The notes under the pieces: generated by a model
What the model was told of the DNA's origin: nothing
The model's input: only the letters and a program-made list of their open reading frames with translations
Database searches by the model: none
Position numbers and translations under genes: made by a program
Shown here: positions 2,654-14,160 of the stretch, one piece after another
Position numbering within the stretch: position 1 is the stretch's first letter
Layout: each line of letters opens with the position of its first letter
Assembly: GCA_025062275.1 (NCBI GenBank)
Contig: JANXAP010000028.1
Coordinates: forward strand, 1-34,388
Direction: 5' to 3'
DNA: 34,388 nt
Source: Dehalococcoidia bacterium
Lineage (GTDB): Bacteria > Chloroflexota > Dehalococcoidia > SM23-28-2 > HRBIN24

Positions 2654-3028
2654 GTGCCAGACGTCCACGCCCTCTTCGAGCAGTATACGGCTGTCCTGAT
2701 CGCCACCGTCCTCGGCTTCGTGCTGGTGGGCGGCGCCCTGCTGGCCAACCTTCTTCTCTCGCCCCGACAGCGGACGCGGCCCAAGGGACTCACCTACGAG
2801 TGCGGCATGTTGCCCATCGGCCGTGGCCGCTTTCAGATCCACTTCCGCTACTACCTGTTCGCCATCCTGTTCCTCATCTTCGACATCGAGGCCGTGTTCC
2901 TGTTCCCGTGGGCCCTGAGCTTCCTGGACGTGGGGGCGATGGCCTTCTACGAGATGCTGGTGTTCATCGTCATCCTGGGCTTCGGACTGCTCTACGCCTG
3001 GCGAAAGGGCGTCCTGCAATGGAGGTAG
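2654..3028 (+). CDS. nuoA: NADH-quinone oxidoreductase subunit A
   Basis: Small membrane subunit of complex I (NuoA/NdhC/ND3 family), at the junction of the peripheral arm and membrane arm near the quinone site. 124 aa, the usual length, with three predicted membrane helices (about residues 10-33, 68-87 and 95-115). The conserved loop TYECGM follows helix 1, and FDIEAVFLFPW is the family signature in helix 2. The start is GTG, preceded by a weak GAGG about ten bases upstream. First gene of the nuo operon. The stop is seven bases from nuoB, whose GGAGG ribosome-binding site lies in the last nuoA codons. Confidence 0.96.
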   Translation: MPDVHALFEQYTAVLIATVLGFVLVGGALLANLLLSPRQRTRPKGLTYECGMLPIGRGRFQIHFRYYLFAILFLIFDIEAVFLFPWALSFLDVGAMAFYEMLVFIVILGFGLLYAWRKGVLQWR

Positions 3029-3035
3029 ATAGCTG

Positions 3036-3650
3036 ATGGTCCAGCGACGGCCCGTACAGGTCTACGAGGTGCGGGACGACCCGCCGGGGGCGCGCTCGGA
3101 TGTGGTGCCGCCGGAGGTGGTGCACGAGGTCAAGTCGCTGACGCCGGCGCCGGAGGCCCACGCCCGCCCCAAGGCCCTGTACCGTCAGCTCCTGCCGGGC
3201 ATCATCCAACTGCCGGCCGACTGGATCATCGCCTGGGGCCGCAAGAACTCCCTGTGGCCCCTGACCTTCGGGCTGGCCTGTTGCGCCATCGAGATGATCG
3301 CTACCTACATGGCCCGGCATGACCTGGACCGGTTCGGCATCATCCCCTGGCCGTCGCCGCGCCAGTGCGACGTGATGATCGTCTCGGGGACCGTCACCAA
3401 GAAGATGGCGCCGGCTGTGAAGCTGCTCTACGAGCAGATGCCCAACCCCAAGTGGGTCATCTCCATGGGGGCTTGTGCGACCAACGGTGGCCCCTACACC
3501 CGCTACGACCGCGTGCTGCAGGGGGTGGACAAGATAATCCCGGTGGACGTGTACGTGCCGGGCTGTCCTCCGCGGCCCGAGGCCCTGATGGACGCCTTCC
3601 TGGCCCTCCAGAAGAAGATCATGGAGGAGAGGGGCCAGGTGGGCCGCTAG
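3036..3650 (+). CDS. nuoB: NADH-quinone oxidoreductase subunit B
   Basis: Peripheral-arm subunit of complex I that carries the terminal iron-sulfur cluster N2, which reduces quinone. 204 aa. The four N2 ligands are visible: the adjacent pair Cys82-Cys83 in GLACCAIEM, Cys147 in [10 protein letters not shown] and Cys177 in [14 protein letters not shown] and the GTVTKKMAP loop are conserved. It has an N-terminal extension of roughly 45 residues, Pro/Val/Arg-rich, ahead of the core; this is longer than in many bacterial homologues and of unknown role. ATG start with GGAGG about ten bases upstream, inside the end of nuoA. nuoC follows after four bases. Confidence 0.97.
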
Positions 3651-3654
3651 CGCT

Positions 3655-4785
3655 ATGAGCGAGGGCACCGCCACCGACCAGGCCCTGCCTCCCGTGCTGG
3701 AGCGTCTGCGGGAGGCGCTGCCCGATGTACCCTTCGAATACGTGCCCACGCCGCTCGACCCGGCGGTGACCGTGCCCCGTGAGCACCTGTTGCGCCTCAT
3801 GACCGCCCTCAAGGAGGACGAGCGCCTCGCCTTCGATTACCTGCGCTGCCTCTCGGGTGTGGACTACCTGGACGAGCTGGAGGTGGTCTACCACCTGCGC
3901 TCCTTCCGCCATGGCCACACTATCGCCGTCAAGGTGCGTGCCCCGGCCGACGACCCGCGCATCCCCAGCGTCGCCCACCTCTGGAAGGCCGCCGACTGGC
4001 ACGAGCGCGAGACCTGGGAGATGTTCGGAATCGTCTTCGAGGGGCACCCCGACCTGCGGCCCCTCCTCACCGAAGAGGGGTTGGGCTACTACCCCCTGCG
4101 CAAGAGCCATCCCCTGGCCGAGATAGAGGACTGGCAGGAGAACCTGCTGGAGCAGGTGGAGCGCCTGGCGGCCGCGGCTGCCCCGCCCGGCGCCCCGGAG
4201 GTGGTGGACGAGAAGGCCCAGAAGGTGGCCCTGGCCCAGAAGAAGGCGGAGGTCATCAAGAAGGCGCGGGAGGAGGCGCGAGCCAAGGGCCTCCCGCCGG
4301 AGGAGGAGCGCAAATACGTCCAGGAGGCCATAAAGCGCTTCGAGGAGGAGATGGCCAGGGAAGCGGCGGCCCCTGCCGCCCCTGCAGCCGCCCGTCCCGC
4401 CGCCGGGGACGAACGCGCCCAGAAGGTGGCCCTGGCCCAGAAGAAGGCCGAGGTCATCAAGAAGGCGCGGGAGGAGGCGCGAGCCAAGGGCCTCTCGGGC
4501 GAGGACGAACGCAAGTATGTGCAGGAGGCGGTGAAGCGCTTCGAGGAGGAGATGGCCGGCACCGCAGCGGCGCCGGCGGCCCAGCCCCAACGGCCCGCCG
4601 GCGAGGCCAAGGCGCCCCTCAGCGCTGCCGATAAGGCCGCCCGCATCGCACTGGCCCAGAAGAAGGCCGAGGTCATCAAGAAGGCGCGGGAAGAGGCCCG
4701 CGCCAAGGGCCTCTCGGGCGAAGAGGAGCGCAAATACGTCCAGGAGGCCCTGCGCCGCCTGGAGCAGGAAGGGGAAGGAGGCTAG
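3655..4785 (+). CDS. nuoC: NADH-quinone oxidoreductase subunit C with triplicated C-terminal tail
   Basis: Complex I 30-kDa subunit (NuoC) in the peripheral arm, packing against NuoD. The core is residues 1 to about 170, including the family signature HERETWEMFGI (residues 116-126). The protein then continues to 376 aa, about twice the usual size of an unfused NuoC. The extra part holds three charged, probably helical repeats (residues 186-234, 253-301 and 326 to the end) joined by Ala/Pro linkers; see the repeat entry. Starts at ATG 3655, five bases after nuoB, and ends ten bases before nuoD with GGAAGGAGG in its last codons serving nuoD. The core assignment is firm. The tail's function is unknown, and it does not resemble a NuoCD fusion because nuoD is a separate, complete gene. 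Confidence 0.95.
   Translation: MSEGTATDQALPPVLERLREALPDVPFEYVPTPLDPAVTVPREHLLRLMTALKEDERLAFDYLRCLSGVDYLDELEVVYHLRSFRHGHTIAVKVRAPADDPRIPSVAHLWKAADWHERETWEMFGIVFEGHPDLRPLLTEEGLGYYPLRKSHPLAEIEDWQENLLEQVERLAAAAAPPGAPEVVDEKAQKVALAQKKAEVIKKAREEARAKGLPPEEERKYVQEAIKRFEEEMAREAAAPAAPAAARPAAGDERAQKVALAQKKAEVIKKAREEARAKGLSGEDERKYVQEAVKRFEEEMAGTAAAPAAQPQRPAGEAKAPLSAADKAARIALAQKKAEVIKKAREEARAKGLSGEEERKYVQEALRRLEQEGEGG
4210..4785 (+). repeat. Three in-frame tandem repeats encoding the NuoC tail
   Basis: Units start at 4210, 4411 and 4630 (49, 49 and 51 codons; the last ends with the gene), separated by linkers of 18 and 24 codons rich in Ala and Pro. Each unit encodes the core ALAQKKAEVIKKAREEARAK followed by GL, then ERKYVQEA and a charged end. 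The 66-bp core at 4228-4293 differs from that at 4429-4494 at one base, and the copy at 4648-4713 differs from the second at four. All five changes are synonymous, so the 22-residue core is identical in all copies. The pattern of alternating Lys/Arg and Glu suggests a single alpha helix or a weak coiled coil. Confidence 0.93.
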
Positions 4786-4794
4786 CGGCCCGTC

Positions 4795-5931
4795 ATGGCC
4801 AGCACAGCCCCCCAGCACCGACACGAGCTGGAGACCATCGACCTGCACATCAACGTGGGGCCGCAGCACCCGGCCACCCACGGCGTCTTCCGCATGGTGC
4901 TGACGGTCAACGGCGAGCTGGTGGAGGACTGCGACCCGGTCATCGGCTACATGCACCGGGGCAACGAGAAGCTGCCCGAGAACTGCGACTACCGCCAGAT
5001 CATCGGCTACCACGACCGCACGGATTACCTGGCCCAGTTCAACACCGAGTGGACCTATTGCCTGGCCGTGGAGAAGCTGATGGGCCTGGAGGTGCCGGAG
5101 CGGGCGGAGTACATCCGCGTCATCCTGGGGGAGCTGAATCGGGTGGCCAGCCACCTCATGTGGGCCGGCGCCTTCGGCACCGACGTGGGCTTCTTCGGGA
5201 CGCCATTCATGTACGCCTTCCGCGAGCGAGAGGTCATCCAGGACCTGTTCGAGGCCGTCACCGGCGAGCGCATGATGTACAACTACTTCCGCCCCGGCGG
5301 GGTGGCCTGGGACGTGCCCGACGACTTCGAGGAGCACTGCCGCTACGTCATCGACCACGTCCGCCGCGGCATCGATGACCTGGACGCCCTCATGACCGAC
5401 AACGAGGTGTTCCTGGCCCGCTGCCGGGGCCTGTCCCCGGTGACGCCCGAGCAGGCCATCAACTGGGGTCTCTCGGGCCCCATGCTGCGGGCCTGCGGCG
5501 TCAAGCACGACCTGCGCCGGGCCGAGCCTTACTCCATTTACGACCGCTTCGACTTCGAGATCCCGGTGGGCACCCAGGGGGACGTCTACGACCGCTACCT
5601 GGTGCGCATGGAGGAGATGCGTCAGTCGCTGCGCATCGTGGAGCAGGCCCTGAAGCAGATGCCCAAGAACGGGCCTATCATGGCCGAGGGCCTCAAGAGG
5701 GTGCTGCGACCTCCCTCTGGCGAGGTTTACGCCCGCACCGAGTCGCCCCGAGGCGAGTACGGGGTCTACATCGTCTCCCGCGGCGCCGACAAGCCCTGGC
5801 GTCACAAGGTGCGGGGGGCATCCTTCTGCAACCTGTCCGCCCTCCGGGAAATGGTGATCGGCAACTACGTGGCCGACGCCATCATCATCCTCGGCTCCAT
5901 CGACATAGTCCTGTGCGAGGTGGACCGGTGA
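4795..5931 (+). CDS. nuoD: NADH-quinone oxidoreductase subunit D
   Basis: 49-kDa subunit of complex I, forming most of the quinone headgroup pocket with NuoB. 378 aa, normal for an unfused NuoD. GPQHPATHG (residues 22-30) supplies the loop His and RTDYL the conserved quinone-contacting Tyr (Tyr78); ELNRVASHLMW and FRPGGVAWD are also family blocks. The usual HRGIEK reads HRGNEK. The C-terminus DIVLCEVDR is conserved. ATG start with a GGAGG about 15 bases upstream, at the end of nuoC. Its TGA stop overlaps the GTG proposed as the nuoH start, suggesting translational coupling. Confidence 0.97.
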   Translation: MASTAPQHRHELETIDLHINVGPQHPATHGVFRMVLTVNGELVEDCDPVIGYMHRGNEKLPENCDYRQIIGYHDRTDYLAQFNTEWTYCLAVEKLMGLEVPERAEYIRVILGELNRVASHLMWAGAFGTDVGFFGTPFMYAFREREVIQDLFEAVTGERMMYNYFRPGGVAWDVPDDFEEHCRYVIDHVRRGIDDLDALMTDNEVFLARCRGLSPVTPEQAINWGLSGPMLRACGVKHDLRRAEPYSIYDRFDFEIPVGTQGDVYDRYLVRMEEMRQSLRIVEQALKQMPKNGPIMAEGLKRVLRPPSGEVYARTESPRGEYGVYIVSRGADKPWRHKVRGASFCNLSALREMVIGNYVADAIIILGSIDIVLCEVDR

Positions 5932-7064
5932 TCGGCGACAACCCCTGGCTGGACGGGCTGTTGCGGCTGCTGGTCATAGCTGTCGCCATTCCCCTGGCGG
6001 TCATCGTCCTCAACTACCTGGAGCGGAAGGTCATCGGCCGAGTCCAGAACCGCCTGGGCCCCATGCGGGTAGGCCCCTACGGCACCCTCCAGGCTGTGGC
6101 CGACACCATCAAGCTCCTGACGAAGGAGGACGTGCGTCCCCACAGCGCCGACCGCTGGACCTTCGAGCTGGCGCCCTACGTGGTGGTGGTGCCCTCGGTG
6201 GTGGCGCTGGTGACGCTGCCTCTGACCGAAGACCTGTTCGTGCGCAACCTGGCCCTGGGCCTGTTCTTCATCCTGGCCGTCTCCACCCTCTCCATCGTCG
6301 GCCTGGTGATGGCTGGCTGGGGGTCCGACAACAAGTACGCCATACTGGGGGCTATGCGCTCCGCCGCCCAGCTCATCAGCTACGAGATCCCGCTGGTGAT
6401 GGCGGCGGTGGCGGTGGCCATGGTGGCCCATACCCCCGACGGCCGCGGCACCCTCGACCTGGTGCAGATCGTGGACGGTCAGGGGCGGGTGCCCTACATC
6501 GTGTGGCAGCCCCTGGCCTTCCTGATCTTCACCGTGGCCGCCCTGGCCGAGCTCTACCGCCAGCCCTTCGACATCCCCGTGGCCGAGTCGGAGGTGGTGG
6601 GCGGCCCCTTCGTGGAGTACTCGGGCATGCGCTGGGCCATGTTCATGATGGCCGAATACGTCAACCTGGTGCTGCTCTCGGCCCTGACCGCCATCGTCTT
6701 CCTGGGTGGCTGGAACTGGCCTCTGGGCAACGAGGTGGGGCCGGCGCTGCAGGTGCCCCTCATGGCCGTCAAGACAGCCATATTCATCCTCTTCTTCTTC
6801 TGGGCCAGGGCCATCCTGCCCAGGCTGCGCATCGACCAGCTGATGGCCTATTCGTGGCAGGTGCTGCTGCCCCTGGCCTTCTACCAGATCATCGCCAACG
6901 GCCTGGTGCTGGTCTACGACTGGCCCGATGTGGTCCTGGGCGTCCTGTCCGGTGCCGGGGCCATGGCTGCCATATTCCTGACCTACCGCATGGCGCGTCG
7001 GCCGGCCCCCGTGCGGCGTCCGGTGGCCGTCGCTGCGACAAGCATGAGAGAGGTGAAGGTCTGA
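5928..7064 (+). CDS. nuoH: NADH-quinone oxidoreductase subunit H
   Basis: Membrane subunit (ND1 family) joining the peripheral arm to the proton-pumping arm and lining the quinone tunnel. 378 aa from the chosen start, with about eight membrane helices. ERKVIGRVQNRLGPMRVGPYG is the first family block, and the acidic loop with AELYRQPFDIPVAESE followed by EYSGMRWAMF is intact. GTG 5928 is preferred because it overlaps the nuoD stop (GTGA) and has AGGTGG upstream; an in-frame GTG at 5913 would add five residues. It ends in a short basic tail and is separated from nuoI by one base. Confidence 0.96.
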   Translation: MIGDNPWLDGLLRLLVIAVAIPLAVIVLNYLERKVIGRVQNRLGPMRVGPYGTLQAVADTIKLLTKEDVRPHSADRWTFELAPYVVVVPSVVALVTLPLTEDLFVRNLALGLFFILAVSTLSIVGLVMAGWGSDNKYAILGAMRSAAQLISYEIPLVMAAVAVAMVAHTPDGRGTLDLVQIVDGQGRVPYIVWQPLAFLIFTVAALAELYRQPFDIPVAESEVVGGPFVEYSGMRWAMFMMAEYVNLVLLSALTAIVFLGGWNWPLGNEVGPALQVPLMAVKTAIFILFFFWARAILPRLRIDQLMAYSWQVLLPLAFYQIIANGLVLVYDWPDVVLGVLSGAGAMAAIFLTYRMARRPAPVRRPVAVAATSMREVKV

Positions 7065-7065
7065 C

Positions 7066-7599
7066 ATGCTGGGCATCCTCAAGACCATCGCTGCCAGCGT
7101 GGGCATCGCCGCTCGCAAGCCGGTGACCGTCCAGTATCCCACCGAGAAGAAGCAGCTACCGCAGCGGTCGCGGGGCTTCCCGACGCTCCTTTGGGACTTC
7201 GAGCACGACGAGCCTTTCTGCACTGGCTGTCAGGTGTGCGCTCGTTATTGCCCCACCGACTGCATGACGGTGACCATGAAGGACAACCCCAAGTACGCGG
7301 AGGGCAAAAGTCCGCGCAAGAAGATCGTGGACACCTTCTACATCGACTACGCCCGTTGCATGCGCTGCGACATATGCGTCGAGGTGTGCAACTTCGACGC
7401 CATCGTCATGGACAACACCTGGCGCAGCGTGGAGATGTCCCGCTTCGACCGCCAGGACCTGATCATGGACCTGGAGGCCCTCCTGCGGCCGTCCAAGACG
7501 GGCCAGCTCCCCAATCCCTTCCGGGAGCCCATGGGGGTGGCCCACAGCGGCTGGCGGCCCAAGAGCGAGGGCGCCGAGAGGGGCGGCGAGGAGGAGTAG
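7066..7599 (+). CDS. nuoI: NADH-quinone oxidoreductase subunit I, 2x[4Fe-4S]
   Basis: Ferredoxin-like subunit of complex I carrying clusters N6a and N6b, passing electrons to N2 in NuoB. 177 aa. Two four-Cys motifs are visible: Cys52, 55, 58 and 62 (CTGCQVCARYCP) and Cys98, 101, 104 and 108 (CMRCDICVEVC). As in many NuoI proteins the second motif is followed by Asn-Phe rather than Pro. The C-terminal tail is Glu/Gly-rich. ATG start with GAGAGGTGAAGG upstream. This is the outermost cluster-bearing subunit encoded here: no NuoE/F/G gene follows, so an external donor would have to deliver electrons to it. A 113-bp structured gap follows before nuoJ. Confidence 0.97.
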   Translation: MLGILKTIAASVGIAARKPVTVQYPTEKKQLPQRSRGFPTLLWDFEHDEPFCTGCQVCARYCPTDCMTVTMKDNPKYAEGKSPRKKIVDTFYIDYARCMRCDICVEVCNFDAIVMDNTWRSVEMSRFDRQDLIMDLEALLRPSKTGQLPNPFREPMGVAHSGWRPKSEGAERGGEEE

Positions 7600-7712: not shown

Positions 7713-8219
7713 ATGACGCTGGAAGAGGGGATCTTCTACGTTGTCGCGGCGGTGACGACCCTGGGCGGCCTGGGGGTGGTGCTCGCCCGCAATGTCGTCT
7801 ACGCCGCCCTCTTCCTCATCGTCGCCCTCCTGGGCGTGGCCGGCATCTTCCTGCTGCTGGCTGCCGAGTTCCTGGCCATCGTGCAGGTGCTCATATACGG
7901 TGCCGCCGTCACCATCCTCGTCCTGTTCGTGCTCATGCTGACGAGGGCACGGGACGTGCCCCAACGGGTGGACAGCCCCCAGCGGCCGCTGGCCTTCTTG
8001 CTGGCCTCGGCCCTGCTGGGCCTGCTGGTGACGGCCATAGTGACCACCGATTGGGCGGCCCTGGGGGCGACGGAGCAGATCCACCTGGTGCCGGCGCGGG
8101 AGCTGGGGCGCTCCCTCTTCAGCAACTGGTCGGTGCCCTTCGAGGTGGCCTCGCTGGTGCTCATCGTGGCCCTGGTGGGGGCCGTCATCCTGGCCCGCAT
8201 AGAGGAGGGGGAGGAATGA
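7713..8219 (+). CDS. nuoJ: NADH-quinone oxidoreductase subunit J
   Basis: Membrane subunit (ND6 family) of complex I, 168 aa with five predicted helices. The third helix region holds the conserved AIVQVLIYGAAVTILVLFV block, which contributes to the connection between the quinone site and the antiporter subunits. ATG 7713 is chosen because the protein then starts directly with helix 1. The ribosome-binding site is weak (CAGGG about ten bases upstream), so the upstream stem-loop may matter for expression. The stop overlaps the nuoK start as ATGA, after GAGGAGGGGGAGG. Confidence 0.95.
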   Translation: MTLEEGIFYVVAAVTTLGGLGVVLARNVVYAALFLIVALLGVAGIFLLLAAEFLAIVQVLIYGAAVTILVLFVLMLTRARDVPQRVDSPQRPLAFLLASALLGLLVTAIVTTDWAALGATEQIHLVPARELGRSLFSNWSVPFEVASLVLIVALVGAVILARIEEGEE

Positions 8220-8524
8220 TCCCCATCCAGCACTTTCTGGTGTTGGGGGCCATCCTGTTCGCCCTGGGGGTCTACGGGGTGCTGGCGCGGCGCAGCGCCG
8301 TCCTCATCCTCATGTCGGTGGAGCTGATGCTGCAAGCGGTGAGCATCAACTTCGTGGCCTTCGCGGCCTATCTGGCGCCGCAGGAGTTTCGTGGTCTCAT
8401 CTTCGCCATCTTCGTGATCACCATCGCCGCGGCCGAGGTGGGCCTGGCGCTGGCCATCATCCTGCGGCTGTTCCGCAACCGGGCCACGGCCAACGTCGAC
8501 GAGGTGGACACGCTTCGATGGTAG
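8216..8524 (+). CDS. nuoK: NADH-quinone oxidoreductase subunit K
   Basis: Small membrane subunit (ND4L family), 102 aa, three helices. The conserved membrane Glu residues lie in LMSVELMLQAVSINFVAF and in AAAEVGLALAI. The true start is ATG 8216, overlapping the nuoJ stop (ATGA) with a strong GGAGG upstream; the same frame stays open further upstream inside nuoJ, but that part is not coding in this frame. The 3' end overlaps nuoL by seven bases, continuing the translational coupling of this operon half. Confidence 0.96.
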   Translation: MIPIQHFLVLGAILFALGVYGVLARRSAVLILMSVELMLQAVSINFVAFAAYLAPQEFRGLIFAIFVITIAAAEVGLALAIILRLFRNRATANVDEVDTLRW

Positions 8525-10419
8525 GCATGGAGCACGCCTGGCTGCTGCCGACGCTGCCCTTCGGGGCGTTCGTGGTTTTGCTGCTGCTGGGGCCTTATCT
8601 CCCGCGAAGGGGGGACTGGCTGGCCATCGGTGCCGTGGCGGCGAGCTTCGTCCTCTACGCCTTCATGCTGGCCGACCTGCTGGGCGCCCTGGACGAAGGC
8701 CCCTTCGAGGGGGTGGCCTCGGGCATCGACTGGCTGCGCTTCGGCACCTTTCACGTGACCCTGGGCTTCCTGTTCGACCAGCTGGCGGCGGTGATGCTGG
8801 CGGTGGTGACCTTCGTGGGGACGCTGATCTTCATCTACTCCACGGGCTACATGAAGGGCGACCCCCGCTATGGCTGGTTCTTCGCCGCCATGAGCCTGTT
8901 CGTGGCCTCCATGGTCACGCTGGTGCTGGCCGACAACCTGCTGCTGCTGTACGCCGCCTGGGAGGGGGTGGGCTTCTGCTCCTTCCTGCTCATCGGCTTC
9001 TGGCACGAGCGGCGGTCGGCGGCGGAGGCGGCCAAGAAGGCCTTCATCACCACCCGTATCGGCGACGTGGGCTTCCTCATCGGCATCGTGCTGCTGTGGC
9101 GGGAGGCGGGCACGTTCAACCTGAAGGAGATATTCGAGTTCGCCGAAGCCGGTGGCTACAGCCGCGAATACCTGACGCTGGCGGTGCTGCTCCTGTTCGC
9201 TGGGGCGGTGGGCAAGTCCGCCCAGTTCCCGCTGCACGTGTGGCTTCCCGATGCCATGGAGGGGCCGACGCCCGTTTCGGCCCTCATTCACGCTGCCACC
9301 ATGGTGGTGGCCGGTGTGTACCTGGTGGCCCGCACCATGCCCCTGTTCGACCTGGCTGACCCGGTGGCGCTGCACGTGGTGACGGCCCTCGGGCTGACGA
9401 CGGTGTTCCTGTCGGCCACCATCGGCCTGGTGGCCAACGATATCAAGCGAGTGGTGGCCTACTCCACCCTCAACAGTCTGGGCCTGATGATGGTGGCCCT
9501 CGGCTCCCGCGACGTGACGGCGGCCATGTTCTACCTGTTCGTGCACGGCTTCTTCAAGGCGCTGCTGTTCATGGCGGCAGGCAACGTCATTCATGCCACC
9601 GACCGCCAGGAGGTGACCCAGTTGGGCGGCCTGGCGGCCAAGATGCCCCAGACGGCGGCCGCCTTCGGGGTGGGAGTGCTGTCCATGGCCGCCCTCATCC
9701 CCTTCTCGGGCTTCTGGGCCAAGGACGCCATCCTGCACGGGGTGAGCGAGCACCAGCACGCCGCGGTGACGGCCCTGGTGGCCTTCAGCGCCTTCCTGAC
9801 GGCCGTTTACATTGCCCGCCTCTACATCCTGACCTTCACCGGGCAGCCGCGGGACCGACATGCCTACGAGCATGCCCACGAGGCGCCGCCCGTCATGCTG
9901 CTGCCGGTGCTGGTGCTGGCTGCCATATCGGTGGTGGCGGGCTTCTGGGCCTTCGATGGCGTGGGCGAGGCCCTGGGCTTCCCGGGGAGCATCGGCAAGT
10001 TCGTGTTCTTCGAGGAACCGGTGGAGCTGAAGTTTCCGTCGGCCATAGCCGTGGCCTCCATCGTCTCGGTGGTGGCGGGGCTGGCGGTGGCGGGCTGGGC
10101 CTGGTGGGGCGAGGCGCGCCCCGCCCAGGTGCTGGCCCAGCGCTTTCGTCCCCTCTATCAGCTCCTCTGGCACAAGTACTACATTGATGAGGCCTACCAG
10201 TGGGTCATCGACCGTATAGTGCTGGCCCTGGGACGGGTCATCGCCTGGTTCGACCGGGTGGTGGTCAACGACACGGGGGTGGACGGGACGGCGGGGCTGG
10301 CCTTCTTCACTGGCTTCGAGCTGAAGTTCCTGCAGACGGGGCGGCTGCCCAATTATGCCCTGGCCATCGCCGCCGGAGCTCTCATCGCGGCCGCCGTCGT
10401 CCTGGCGGTGAGGATCTAG
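8518..10419 (+). CDS. nuoL: NADH-quinone oxidoreductase subunit L
   Basis: Distal antiporter-like subunit of complex I (ND5 family), 633 aa, with about 16 helices including the long lateral helix at the C-terminus. The key charged pair is visible: Glu149 in AAWEGVGFCSF and Lys233 in GKSAQFPLHVWLPDAMEGP. TPVSALIHAATMVVAGVYL and the second Lys/His half-channel region HGFFKALLFM are conserved. The start at 8518 overlaps the nuoK end; ATG 8527 (MEHAW) is an alternative three codons in. The ribosome-binding site is not obvious, so translation is probably coupled to nuoK. Confidence 0.97.
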   Translation: MVGMEHAWLLPTLPFGAFVVLLLLGPYLPRRGDWLAIGAVAASFVLYAFMLADLLGALDEGPFEGVASGIDWLRFGTFHVTLGFLFDQLAAVMLAVVTFVGTLIFIYSTGYMKGDPRYGWFFAAMSLFVASMVTLVLADNLLLLYAAWEGVGFCSFLLIGFWHERRSAAEAAKKAFITTRIGDVGFLIGIVLLWREAGTFNLKEIFEFAEAGGYSREYLTLAVLLLFAGAVGKSAQFPLHVWLPDAMEGPTPVSALIHAATMVVAGVYLVARTMPLFDLADPVALHVVTALGLTTVFLSATIGLVANDIKRVVAYSTLNSLGLMMVALGSRDVTAAMFYLFVHGFFKALLFMAAGNVIHATDRQEVTQLGGLAAKMPQTAAAFGVGVLSMAALIPFSGFWAKDAILHGVSEHQHAAVTALVAFSAFLTAVYIARLYILTFTGQPRDRHAYEHAHEAPPVMLLPVLVLAAISVVAGFWAFDGVGEALGFPGSIGKFVFFEEPVELKFPSAIAVASIVSVVAGLAVAGWAWWGEARPAQVLAQRFRPLYQLLWHKYYIDEAYQWVIDRIVLALGRVIAWFDRVVVNDTGVDGTAGLAFFTGFELKFLQTGRLPNYALAIAAGALIAAAVVLAVRI

Positions 10420-10423
10420 AGCC

Positions 10424-11995
10424 ATGGAGTGGGCCGTATTCGCTACCATCGCCATACCCATCGGCACCTGCTTGCTGCTGATGCTGGTGCCCTACCGACA
10501 TGACGAGCAGGTGCGCTACCTGCCCGTGCCCAAGCTGGGGCCTCTGCCCGATCGGCTGCCGCTGTCGGGGCGCTACCTGGTGCGCTATATCTGTCTGCTT
10601 TCGGGGACGGCCCTCTTCGCCCTGTCGCTGCTCATCTTCGTGGCCTATCAGTTCGAGGACGGCGGTTACCGTTTCGAGCTGAGGCTGGACTGGCTGCGGG
10701 ACGTGGCCTTTCTGGGCGAGAACGGCATCAGCTTCCACCTGGCGGTGAACGGGATAACGGCGCCCCTCATCCTGCTGACGGGCATCGTCATCTTCACCGG
10801 CGTGTTCATCTCCTGGAACATCGACTACCGCAACAAGGACTACTTCGTGCTGCTGTTCCTGCTGGTATCGGGGGTGTATGGCGTCTTCGCCAGCCTGGAC
10901 CTGTTCTGGTTCTTCTTCTGGTACGAGGTGGCGGTGCTGCCGATGTACTTCCTCATCGCCATCTGGGGGGCCAGCACCAACTTCGGCACGTTCGTGCGGA
11001 CCAAGGAGTACGGGGCACTGAAGCTGGTGCTCTACCTGGTGGCGGGCAGCGTGCTCATCTTCATCGGCATCTTCGCCACCTTCGTGGAGGCGGGGCTGGG
11101 CACCTTCGACCTGCCGGCCCTGCAGGCGGTGGCCTACGACGAGACCTTTCAGAAGGTATTCTTCCCCTTCTTCATGCTGGGCTTCGGGGTGCTGGCGGGC
11201 CTGTGGCCCTTCCATACCTGGTCACCCGACGGGCATGTGGCGGCGCCGACGGCGGTGAGCATGCTGCACGCCGGGGTGCTGATGAAGCTGGGGGCCTTCG
11301 GCATCCTGCAGGTAGGGATGGCCCTGATGCCCGAGGGCGCCCACTTCTGGGCGCCGGTGATGATGACGCTGGGGGTGACGGGCGCCCTGTACGGGGCCGT
11401 CTCGGCCCTGGCCCAGACGGACCTGAAGTACATGGTGGGTTACTCCAGCGTCAGCCACATGGGCTACGTCATCATGGGCCTGGCCAGCATGCACGAAATA
11501 GGCATCAGCGGGGCGGTATTGCAGATGTTCGCTCACGGGGTGATGACCGCCCTCATGTTCACCAACGTGGGCGCCCTCTACGACCAGGCCCACGTGCGAG
11601 ACATGACCATCTTCGGCGGCCTGGCCCAGCGGATGCCCCGCCACGCTGCCTACTGGGCGGCGGCGGGCCTCTCCTCGTTGGGGCTGCCGGGGCTGGCGGG
11701 GTTCGTGGCCGAGGTGCTGATCTTCATCGGCGTGTTCAAGGCCGGCTACCCCTGGGCGGGGGCGCTGGGCATCCTGGCGGCGGCCATCACCGCCACCTAC
11801 ATCCTGCGCATGCTGGCCCGCGCTTACTTCGGCCCGTTCAACGAGCGCTGGGCCTTCCTGAAGGAGATGCGCCTCGGTGAGCAGTTTGGAGGGGCCGTGC
11901 TGGTCCTCTTCCTAGTGCTGGTGGGCATGTGGCCCTTCCCCTTCATCGAGCGCATCTCGGCTTCGGTGAAGAACCTGCCGGGGATAACGCAATGA
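10424..11995 (+). CDS. nuoM: NADH-quinone oxidoreductase subunit M
   Basis: Middle antiporter-like subunit (ND4 family), 523 aa, about 14 helices. The conserved Glu of helix 5 is in FFFWYEVAVLPMYFLI, and the block FHTWSPDGHVAAPTAVSML follows the channel helix. LKYMVGYSSVSHMGY is the second-half signature. The N-terminal segment has an extra hydrophilic stretch (PVPKLGPLPDRLPLSGRY) between the first two hydrophobic segments. ATG start four bases after nuoL, with GGTGAGG upstream. The stop overlaps nuoN as ATGA. Confidence 0.97.
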   Translation: MEWAVFATIAIPIGTCLLLMLVPYRHDEQVRYLPVPKLGPLPDRLPLSGRYLVRYICLLSGTALFALSLLIFVAYQFEDGGYRFELRLDWLRDVAFLGENGISFHLAVNGITAPLILLTGIVIFTGVFISWNIDYRNKDYFVLLFLLVSGVYGVFASLDLFWFFFWYEVAVLPMYFLIAIWGASTNFGTFVRTKEYGALKLVLYLVAGSVLIFIGIFATFVEAGLGTFDLPALQAVAYDETFQKVFFPFFMLGFGVLAGLWPFHTWSPDGHVAAPTAVSMLHAGVLMKLGAFGILQVGMALMPEGAHFWAPVMMTLGVTGALYGAVSALAQTDLKYMVGYSSVSHMGYVIMGLASMHEIGISGAVLQMFAHGVMTALMFTNVGALYDQAHVRDMTIFGGLAQRMPRHAAYWAAAGLSSLGLPGLAGFVAEVLIFIGVFKAGYPWAGALGILAAAITATYILRMLARAYFGPFNERWAFLKEMRLGEQFGGAVLVLFLVLVGMWPFPFIERISASVKNLPGITQ

Positions 11996-13464
11996 GGCTG
12001 GACTGGTCGCTCCTCGCTCCCGAATACGTTCTGGCCGGCTGGGCGGCCATGCTGGTGCTGGTGGACCTCTTCCTGCCCCGCCTGCGCCGGGAGTGGCTGG
12101 GCTACCTGGCGGCGGCCGGAGCGCTGGCTGCCGCTGGCACATCGACCATCTGGCTGGGGGACGAGGCGACCTTTGGCAACCTGCTGGACATCGACAACTA
12201 CACGACCTTCTTCCGTCTGCTCTTTCACGGCATCGCCTTTGTCGTCTGCCTCATCTCGGCCCGCTACGTGGGGGAACGGTTGCGCCACCACGGCGAGTAT
12301 TACGCGCTGGTGCTGCTGGCGGCCCTGGGCGCCACCTACATGGCTGCCGCCAGAGAGCTGCTGTCGGCCTACATCGCCCTGGAGCTGTCCAGCTTCAGCC
12401 TCTACGTGCTGGCCTCCTTCGCTAAGGCGGAGGTGCGCTCCAACGAGGGAGGCCTGAAGTACATGCTGCTGGGGGCTTTCTCCTCGGCCATCCTTCTCTA
12501 CGGCCTGAGCATGGTCTACGCCGTGGCCGGCACCACCCAGTACGAAGGCATACGCGAGGCCCTGGCGGGCGACCTGGGCGGGGCGCGCTCGGCGGCCCTG
12601 CTGGGGCTGGTTCTGCTGGTGGCTGGGCTGGGCTTCAAGGTGGCGGCGGTGCCCTTCCACATGTGGACGCCCGACGCCTACGAGGGGGCGCCCCTGCCGG
12701 TGACCGCCCTCATCTCGGCCCTCTCCAAGGCGGCGGGCTTCGCCCTGTTCATCAAGCTGTTCGTGCAGGCCTTCATGCCCCTGGCCGATGACTGGCGTCC
12801 CCTGTTGGCGGGACTGGCGGCTGCCACCATGGTGCTGGGCAACCTGGTGGCCATCCAGCAGCGCAACATCAAGCGGCTTCTGGCCTATTCCAGCATCGGT
12901 CAGGTGGGCTACATCCTGGCGGGGGTGGTGGCCCTTTCGCCCGATCGGCCGGACGTGGCCAGCGCCATCCTGTTCCATCTGGCCGGCTACGTCATCAGCA
13001 ACCTGGCCGCCTTCGCCTGCGCCATCGTCTACTACAACTGGACAGGGGAGGAGGACATATACGGCTACCGGGGCCTGGCGGAGCGGGCACCCTTCCTGGC
13101 CCTGGCCATGTCGGCCTCCCTCTTCTCTCTGGCAGGGATGCCCCTCTTCGCCGGCTTCGTCACCAAGTTCGTCCTGTTTCAGGCCATCGCCCAGGAGGAC
13201 TTTCTGTGGCTGGCAGGGGTGGGCGTCCTGACCAGCTTCATCTCCCTGTACTATTACCTGATGGTGATGAAGCAGATGTATCTGGGGGAGCCTGCGGAGC
13301 CCACCAGGTTCCCGACGCCCTGGCTGGAGTATGCGGCGGTGGCGGCCCTGCTGGCGGGCATATTCCTGGTGGGGCTGGCGCCTTTGCCGGTCATGGAGGC
13401 CGCCGAGCGGGCGGCGACGCTGGTCTATCGCGACCTGGGGCCGGCGCTGCTGGCTGGCCGTTAG
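11992..13464 (+). CDS. nuoN: NADH-quinone oxidoreductase subunit N
   Basis: Proximal antiporter-like subunit (ND2 family), 490 aa, about 14 helices. Conserved blocks are YIALELSSFSLYVLA with the membrane Glu, EGGLKYMLLGAFSSAILLYG, FKVAAVPFHMWTPDAYEGAP and IKRLLAYSSIGQVGY. ATG 11992 overlaps the nuoM stop; the same frame is open 63 bases further up inside nuoM, but those codons do not fit the family. Last gene of the operon. Its TAG stop overlaps the TAA stop of the convergent sigma-factor gene in the four bases TTAG, leaving no room for a terminator between them. Confidence 0.97.
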   Translation: MRLDWSLLAPEYVLAGWAAMLVLVDLFLPRLRREWLGYLAAAGALAAAGTSTIWLGDEATFGNLLDIDNYTTFFRLLFHGIAFVVCLISARYVGERLRHHGEYYALVLLAALGATYMAAARELLSAYIALELSSFSLYVLASFAKAEVRSNEGGLKYMLLGAFSSAILLYGLSMVYAVAGTTQYEGIREALAGDLGGARSAALLGLVLLVAGLGFKVAAVPFHMWTPDAYEGAPLPVTALISALSKAAGFALFIKLFVQAFMPLADDWRPLLAGLAAATMVLGNLVAIQQRNIKRLLAYSSIGQVGYILAGVVALSPDRPDVASAILFHLAGYVISNLAAFACAIVYYNWTGEEDIYGYRGLAERAPFLALAMSASLFSLAGMPLFAGFVTKFVLFQAIAQEDFLWLAGVGVLTSFISLYYYLMVMKQMYLGEPAEPTRFPTPWLEYAAVAALLAGIFLVGLAPLPVMEAAERAATLVYRDLGPALLAGR

Positions 13465-14003
13465 CCCACCGAAGCGGCCTGGTCGGCAGCCGTCTTCGCG
13501 CCCTCGAAGCCGCGGCGCAGGCGTCCCAGCGCCCGGTAGATGATGACCCGCACATGCACATCCGATAGCCCCAGCAACTCGCCTATCTGACGGCTGTCCA
13601 GGCCCCATTCGAAGCGCAGGGCCAGGATCTCCTGCTCCCGCGGGGAAAGGCGAGTGAGCAGGTGCTTGAGCTGGGCCAGTTCTTCCTTGTGCAGCACCAC
13701 CTCTTCCGGGTCCAGCAGGATGTCGTTGCCATTGGTGTTGAAGCGGGCCGCCTTGTCCAGCGCCCGCTCCAGCGTGCGGGTGCGACGACGGTGGCTGGCC
13801 ACCAGGTTCTTGGCGATGCGGAAGAGCCAGCTGGCCAGGGCCTCTTCGTGTCTGAGGCGGTCCCAGTAGCGATAGGCGCGGACGAAGGCCTCGGCCGTCA
13901 GGTCCTCGGCCACGTGCTGGTCACGGGTCCGGGCCAGTATGAAGCTGAAGATGCGCGGATAGAATGCCTGGAAGGCTTCACTGAAAGCGTCGGACTGTTG
14001 CAT
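13461..14003 (-). CDS. ECF-type RNA polymerase sigma factor
   Basis: Alternative sigma factor of the extracytoplasmic-function class, 180 aa. Sigma region 2 spans about residues 8-80 (FSEAFQAFYPRIFSF, AEDLTAEAFVRAYRYW, ASWLFRIAKNLVASHRRR). A linker with a conspicuous Asn-rich piece follows, then region 4 at about 115-165 (LTRLSPREQEILALRF, DSRQIGELLGLSDVHVRVI). The start at 14003 is chosen because GGAGGGGG lies six bases upstream; an ATG at 14030 would add nine residues. No anti-sigma gene is adjacent. The upstream gap has AT-rich stretches but no clear promoter. It is convergent with nuoN, and which stress it answers to cannot be read from the sequence. Confidence 0.9.
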   Translation of the reverse strand: MQQSDAFSEAFQAFYPRIFSFILARTRDQHVAEDLTAEAFVRAYRYWDRLRHEEALASWLFRIAKNLVASHRRRTRTLERALDKAARFNTNGNDILLDPEEVVLHKEELAQLKHLLTRLSPREQEILALRFEWGLDSRQIGELLGLSDVHVRVIIYRALGRLRRGFEGAKTAADQAASVG

Positions 14004-14160
14004 TGGGACCCCCTCCCTCTTTCGGGCCAAGGAGGCCTCCCAGGGAGACCCCTACCCGTGGCACCAGCCTAAGGCGGCGACGGAGATGATAGGTACTACC
14101 TGGAGGACAGAATAGAAGGTATCTTTTGGCCAAAAAGGGCAGTGACAGGTGGCTAAGGGT

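Follow-up and report, generated by a model that had tools for sequence, protein, structure and literature searches.

Introduction

The field has yet to settle where 11-subunit complex I gets its electrons (PMC11238625). A docking platform has been proposed for this enzyme (PMC11238625, citing Moparthi and Hagerhall 2011), and an attempt to find a conserved donor came up empty (PMC11238625). The corresponding C-terminal region of T. thermophilus Nqo5 has no fold by itself and is held in place within the complex by Nqo3 (NuoG), Nqo4, Nqo6, Nqo9 and Nqo16, at the junction with the NADH module (PMC4932448). In E. coli, the space of the Nqo5/NDUFS3 extension is filled by a loop of NuoG (PMC8357420). 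Extensions at the termini of complex I subunits are already known, and the hairpin-repeat arm on NuoC described below is a variant of them. The E. coli peripheral-arm extensions and the NuoG G-loop are likewise lineage-specific additions near the junction of the N- and Q-modules; however, they are extended ordered tails lining the surface and not repeated hairpins (PMC8357420).

Long repeat extensions have also been recorded on NuoC itself. NuoC of the Bacillus type (NCBIfam NF005832, PRK07735, 430 aa) has a long Ala/Lys-rich helical-repeat extension, which is N-terminal (the NuoC core is at 307-422 of 430), whereas the extension considered here is C-terminal. RnfC/RsxC of E. coli, an electron-entry subunit, carries charged Ala-rich repeats at its C-terminus, in Ala/Lys units of ~33 residues as opposed to the 48 residues of the present units. 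E2 subunits of 2-oxoacid dehydrogenase complexes have small folded domains on mobile Ala/Pro-rich linkers. This last likeness concerns the manner of working only, as the NuoC units contain neither a lipoyl nor a peripheral-subunit-binding domain.

Here we report a real and conserved, apparently undescribed C-terminal arm of hairpin repeats on the NuoC subunit of an 11-subunit complex I. Papers on NuoC repeat tails, or on the other NuoC repeat extensions treated below, were not found in the literature searched, which took in few subscription journals.

Results and Discussion

Layout of the NuoC Gene and Its Tail

The window, i.e., the DNA that was analyzed, is a whole contig of 34,388 bases (C28 of genome G000) and carries valS-nuoABCDHIJKLMN (Table 1). 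Its NuoC belongs to PF00329 (148 bits versus a curated cut-off of 22.5), and the core matches NdhJ, Nqo5 and NuoC. The ordinary 30-kDa subunit accounts for the first ~157 residues and a tail with three units for the other ~219; cyanobacterial NdhJ (168 aa) ends about where this tail starts.

A repeat search of the window returned three in-register copies of 176 nt, at 4206, 4407 and 4626. The spacing of 67 and 73 residues is longer than the unit because of the linkers, which are 19 and 25 residues long and rich in Ala and Pro. An initial annotation of this DNA had described three near-identical 49-residue units on Ala/Pro linkers, in a tail at 4210-4785. The tail, its three units and the linkers are present, but the conserved unit has 48 residues, protein identities between units are 90% (1-2), 77% (1-3) and 77% (2-3), and the tail proper starts earlier, near residue 158 (nucleotide ~4126). 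Near-identity is confined to the first ~28 residues of the unit, and the second helices diverge more. A recount of the three 66-bp cores bore out the annotated pattern of five differences, all synonymous: exactly five positions vary, each at a third codon position (p ~0.001 for five of five, taking ~25% of random single changes as synonymous).

Table 1. Features of the nuo operon and of the repeat tail of NuoC (window coordinates).
Feature	Position	Strand	Basis
nuoA	2654..3028	+	PF00507
nuoB	3036..3650	+	PF01058
nuoC (376 aa; core plus C-terminal tail)	3655..4785	+	ORF and Pfam PF00329
NuoC 30-kDa core domain (residues 38-156)	3766..4122	+	PF00329 E 2.3e-43; fold like NuoC/Nqo5 of solved complex I
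Predicted helix, core-to-tail junction (residues 153-175)	4111..4179	+	AlphaFold2 model
Unit 1, predicted two-helix hairpin (residues 185-232)	4207..4350	+	Repeat search, unit alignment, AlphaFold2
66-bp repeat core, copy 1 (ALAQKKAEVIKKAREEARAKGL)	4228..4293	+	
Ala/Pro linker 1 (residues 233-251), low model confidence	4351..4407	+	pLDDT down to ~33
Unit 2, predicted two-helix hairpin (residues 252-299)	4408..4551	+	Repeat search, unit alignment, AlphaFold2
66-bp repeat core, copy 2	4429..4494	+	
Ala/Pro linker 2 (residues 300-324), low model confidence	4552..4626	+	pLDDT ~34-43
Unit 3, predicted two-helix hairpin (residues 325-372)	4627..4770	+	Repeat search, unit alignment, AlphaFold2
66-bp repeat core, copy 3	4648..4713	+	
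nuoD	4795..5931	+	ORF and conserved operon position
nuoH	5913..7064	+	ORF and operon position
nuoI, 2x[4Fe-4S] ferredoxin-like subunit	7066..7599	+	Fer4 families
nuoJ, nuoK, nuoL, nuoM, nuoN; nuoE, F, G missing from operon	7713..13464	+	

Predicted Structure of the Units

In the AlphaFold2 prediction for full-length NuoC (monomer model, 29-sequence alignment), the core is folded, residues 153-175 form a helix, and three hairpins stand apart from one another, joined by disordered linkers of low confidence. The helices of the hairpins span residues 186-210/215-237, 253-277/282-303 and 324-350/355-374, with pLDDT values of ~85-92 in the hairpins and ~33-43 in the linkers. A single unit modeled alone reached a pLDDT of 93 and a pTM of 0.69. 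The best PDB matches of the full model were NuoC/Nqo5/NDUFS3 chains.

Each unit is predicted with high confidence to form a two-helix hairpin, in which one face of the basic helix 1 (mean charge +4.6) bears most of that helix's invariant residues and helix 2 is acidic (mean charge -2.8). Searches for a known Pfam, NCBIfam or PDB domain in the unit gave no match over a curated cut-off and no significant sequence or fold match; the best PDB fold matches, including a cwf21 hairpin, had E-values above 4. Weak Pfam/NCBIfam matches of the tail (RRM_3, CmoM, SinI, L7/L12 and others) were under the curated cut-offs and were treated as compositional.

Conservation and History of the Units

Eight residues (A10, Q11, K13, R21, A24, R25, G28 and A41) were invariant in 43 aligned units, which was confirmed in 45 units, and K6, A14, I17, E34 and V38 were almost invariant across the 43-45 units. 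Conserved positions in helix 1 fall on one side (shuffling test, p 0.00025, with no correction for relatedness). Comparison of the window with HRbin24, a separately deposited record of the same genus, gave dN/dS values of 0.043 for the units, 0.079 for the linkers and 0.133 for the NuoC core (units versus core: Fisher p 0.058).

The few, synonymous differences among the 66-bp cores had been taken to point to selection on the peptide or to recent conversion, and both proposals found support. The lower dN/dS of the units relative to the core, together with the eight invariant residues, argues for strong purifying selection on the peptide, and unit identities and the unit tree point to amplification or homogenization within lineages. 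In this tree, which is based on 48 columns and leaves many forks open, the window's family keeps its units together in a single group (99/98). The middle unit groups with unit 1 in genomes of the window's genus, but with the last unit in most genomes of family f4. Judging from these different partners, it is probable that the third copy has more than one origin, from the first unit in the former and from the last unit in the latter, and that units were duplicated or homogenized within lineages.

Distribution of the Tail

Among 25 genomes examined from the order, whose Chloroflexota members are mostly uncultured, 20 have this NuoC, and 19 of these 20 carry the tail (families f1, f4 and f5), with two or three units each; in G007 and G018, contig ends fall inside the repeats. 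The exception is G005 (family f3), with just a short end past the NuoC core. In family f2 and in G019, again among the 25 genomes, only the second type of NuoC was found. Exactly one unit is present in G354, from another family of the class outside the order. When 400 genomes of the phylum were sampled, strong matches to the unit came solely from the window's order and this genome.

Unit tails were also found at 16 of 80 named genome loci with a related NuoC, and one more (L068) is cut by a contig end. The tailed loci among these 80 are all Chloroflexota records, some of them labeled Dehalococcoidia, the nearest being HRbin24 (BEIA01000011) with an identical three-unit layout. The possibility that the copy number is an assembly artefact, raised at the outset, was ruled out by this conservation of the same three units in HRbin24 and of the layout in other records, and by the occurrence of one to three copies elsewhere.

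Host Operon and Second Complex I Set

The window's operon and 11-subunit complex I have in common a gene set without nuoEFG, and all tailed operons that were fully read consist of the 11-subunit set (nuoABCDHIJKLMN), with flanks that contain no nuoE, F or G. Directly past the window's operon, and convergent with nuoN, lies a gene for an ECF-type sigma factor (13461-14030, minus strand).

The annotated absence of nuoEFG is correct for the tailed operon but does not extend to the genome, which has NuoE-/NuoF-like genes as a pair on contig C25 and a NuoG-like gene on C18. Contig C20 (L042) carries a second nuo operon (A, C, D, H, J, K, L, M, N) without nuoB and nuoI, and nuoB2 and nuoI2 adjoin the NuoG-like gene on C18. 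Together, these dispersed genes may form one second complex I, although the NuoE-, NuoF- and NuoG-like proteins score below the NCBIfam equivalog cut-offs, the top score of the NuoG-like protein being formate dehydrogenase alpha. The Desulfitobacterium paper cautions against confusing such proteins with complex I parts (PMC11238625). A nickel superoxide dismutase gene (PF09055; 6001-6684 of L150, on C18) is located between nuoB2 and nuoI2, beside the NuoG-like protein.

A tail is lacking from the second NuoC (on C20) of G000 and from its counterparts in the relatives checked (20 relatives; L249 was not cleanly readable). Since the second NuoC is tail-less and the tailed operons are all of the 11-subunit type, the tail goes with the 11-subunit enzyme. 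The expected correlation of the tail with nuoEFG loss held in so far as only the 11-subunit paralogue carries a tail, but it failed in the other direction. The tail does not follow from nuoEFG loss, because many 11-subunit enzymes of the class, including that of G005 in the same order, have none; most 11-subunit NuoC proteins of the class end within ~40 residues past the core. These common tail-less operons ruled out nuoEFG loss as the sole cause of the tail.

Possible Role of the Tail

By analogy with Nqo5 structures, we infer that the C-terminus of NuoC lies at the junction with the missing NADH module. It is possible, and we propose it tentatively as the best of the readings considered, that the tail is a multivalent flexible docking or tether arm on the side where electrons enter an 11-subunit complex I without this module. 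The junction at the NuoC C-terminus would be left free without NuoG, and the hairpin beads would extend outward from there. By binding a soluble electron donor, they would raise its local concentration near NuoI, presenting it much as E2 subunits show small domains on Ala/Pro linkers, and extra copies of the unit would add reach and avidity. Candidates for the donor would be an acidic ferredoxin, KorAB as an enzyme that reduces ferredoxin, or the detached NuoEF-like pair. Reduced ferredoxin would be a reasonable candidate because the genome encodes 2-oxoacid:ferredoxin oxidoreductases. A conserved modular arm at the vacant entry face, missing from the cell's second NuoC, would serve as a specific bait that is easy to express, and its deletion would be a clean test.

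Docking is favored by the conserved and selected hairpins, their presence in one to three copies, the confinement of the tail to the 11-subunit paralogue and the separate tails in families f25 and f36 (see below). Against it, EAK-rich helices are easy to evolve and easy for AlphaFold2 to predict, and the PDB sequence and fold matches point to no known binding domain. Electron delivery as such does not need the tail, because G005 and most 11-subunit NuoC proteins of the class do without it.

An arm of this build could also hold complex I to its own kind, to another complex or to the membrane, and self-tethering and arm stabilization stay serious rivals to docking. Many near-identical amphipathic hairpins on flexible linkers, with a dipolar charge (basic helix 1, acidic helix 2) and in variable copy number, would suit multivalent self-association, in which hairpins of neighboring complexes join each other or another respiratory complex and cluster the 11-subunit enzyme in the membrane. 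We nevertheless regard such clustering as rather unlikely, as the one-unit form in G354 would cluster weakly and the site is on the cytoplasmic arm and not on the membrane arm. A tail that wraps the peripheral arm and replaces contacts of NuoG or of supernumerary subunits would have precedents: the NuoB, NuoI and NuoF tails and the G-loop, which lies in the Nqo5-extension space, stabilize the arm in E. coli (PMC8357420), and the C-terminus of Nqo5 orders on assembly only (PMC4932448). The E. coli extensions have little secondary structure, however, compared with repeated independent hairpins on low-complexity linkers of ~20 residues, and the hairpins are not packed on the NuoC core in the model, although a monomer model cannot settle this point. 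A role in assembly or stability appears unlikely to us.

The hairpins might instead bind a partner that is neither redox-active nor part of complex I, such as ribosomes, RNA or a biogenesis chaperone. Helix 1 is basic, and the nearest PDB folds, albeit non-significant, include spliceosomal helical hairpins of the cwf21 type. We consider this improbable, given the absence of significant matches of any kind (sequence, Pfam, PDB fold) and given that, outside NuoC, a search of the proteins of these genomes for the unit produced weak matches only and nothing convincing. Even less probable is a tail that mostly resulted from repeat expansion within the gene and does little. Copy number does vary, repeats are homogenized within lineages and similar Ala/Lys/Glu repeats readily arise, but the eight residues are invariant over 43-45 units from several families, dN/dS is lower in the units (0.04) than in the core (at the Fisher p of 0.058 given above), and, of the order's 20 genomes with this NuoC, 19 have kept the tail.

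Other Extended NuoC Proteins

The initial annotation knew of no described role for such repeats on NuoC. A repeat-bearing NuoC has a precedent in NF005832/PRK07735, although that repeat is N-terminal and not detectably homologous to the present unit (hhalign 0.2%, with short and shallow profiles); the window's NuoC is not a member of this family (114 bits versus an equivalog cut-off of 431). The suggested parallel with RnfC applies to the charged Ala-rich C-terminal repeats of both proteins but not to their sequences, since homology of the RnfC/RsxC repeat was not detected (hhalign probability 0.4%, BLASTP E 15; profiles short and shallow).

Two further types of NuoC repeat tail were found. 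In family f25 of the class, the tail sits on a NuoC of the 11-subunit type and comprises ~165 residues with units like LTPEELAEKKAAQAERVKRARELAAKARAE. G055 (family f36) has two copies of a different charged repeat, RRKLTPEEMEAAKERAAALRAEHQAKK...KKRYTPEEI, on a NuoC encoded in an 11-subunit operon (L047, 8116-9255). In the 19-20 kb read around the f25 and G055 operons, nuoEFG were not present. Comparison of the f25 units with those of the window gave an hhalign probability of 1.7% over 19 columns, from short and shallow profiles, and the helical-repeat tails of f25 and f36 appear to be unrelated to the window's and to have arisen separately. Three f25 loci (L244, L245 and L246) retain the other genes of the operon, but no nuoI was detected in the stretch from nuoH to nuoJ, and at L078 and similar Streptosporangiales loci, tblastn did not detect NuoD between nuoC and nuoH.

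Recurrent unrelated arms on one subunit suggest a common selective need. It is conceivable, if doubtful, that complex I without the NADH module has repeatedly evolved strings of helical docking domains on NuoC (in the window's order, in f25, in f36 and, N-terminally, in PRK07735) as a general, convergent means of capturing soluble donors; if so, the hairpins would allow the donor of the 11-subunit enzyme to be pulled out directly. A Bacillus NuoC repeat matched the NF005832 profile at positions 54-179 (E 4e-31).
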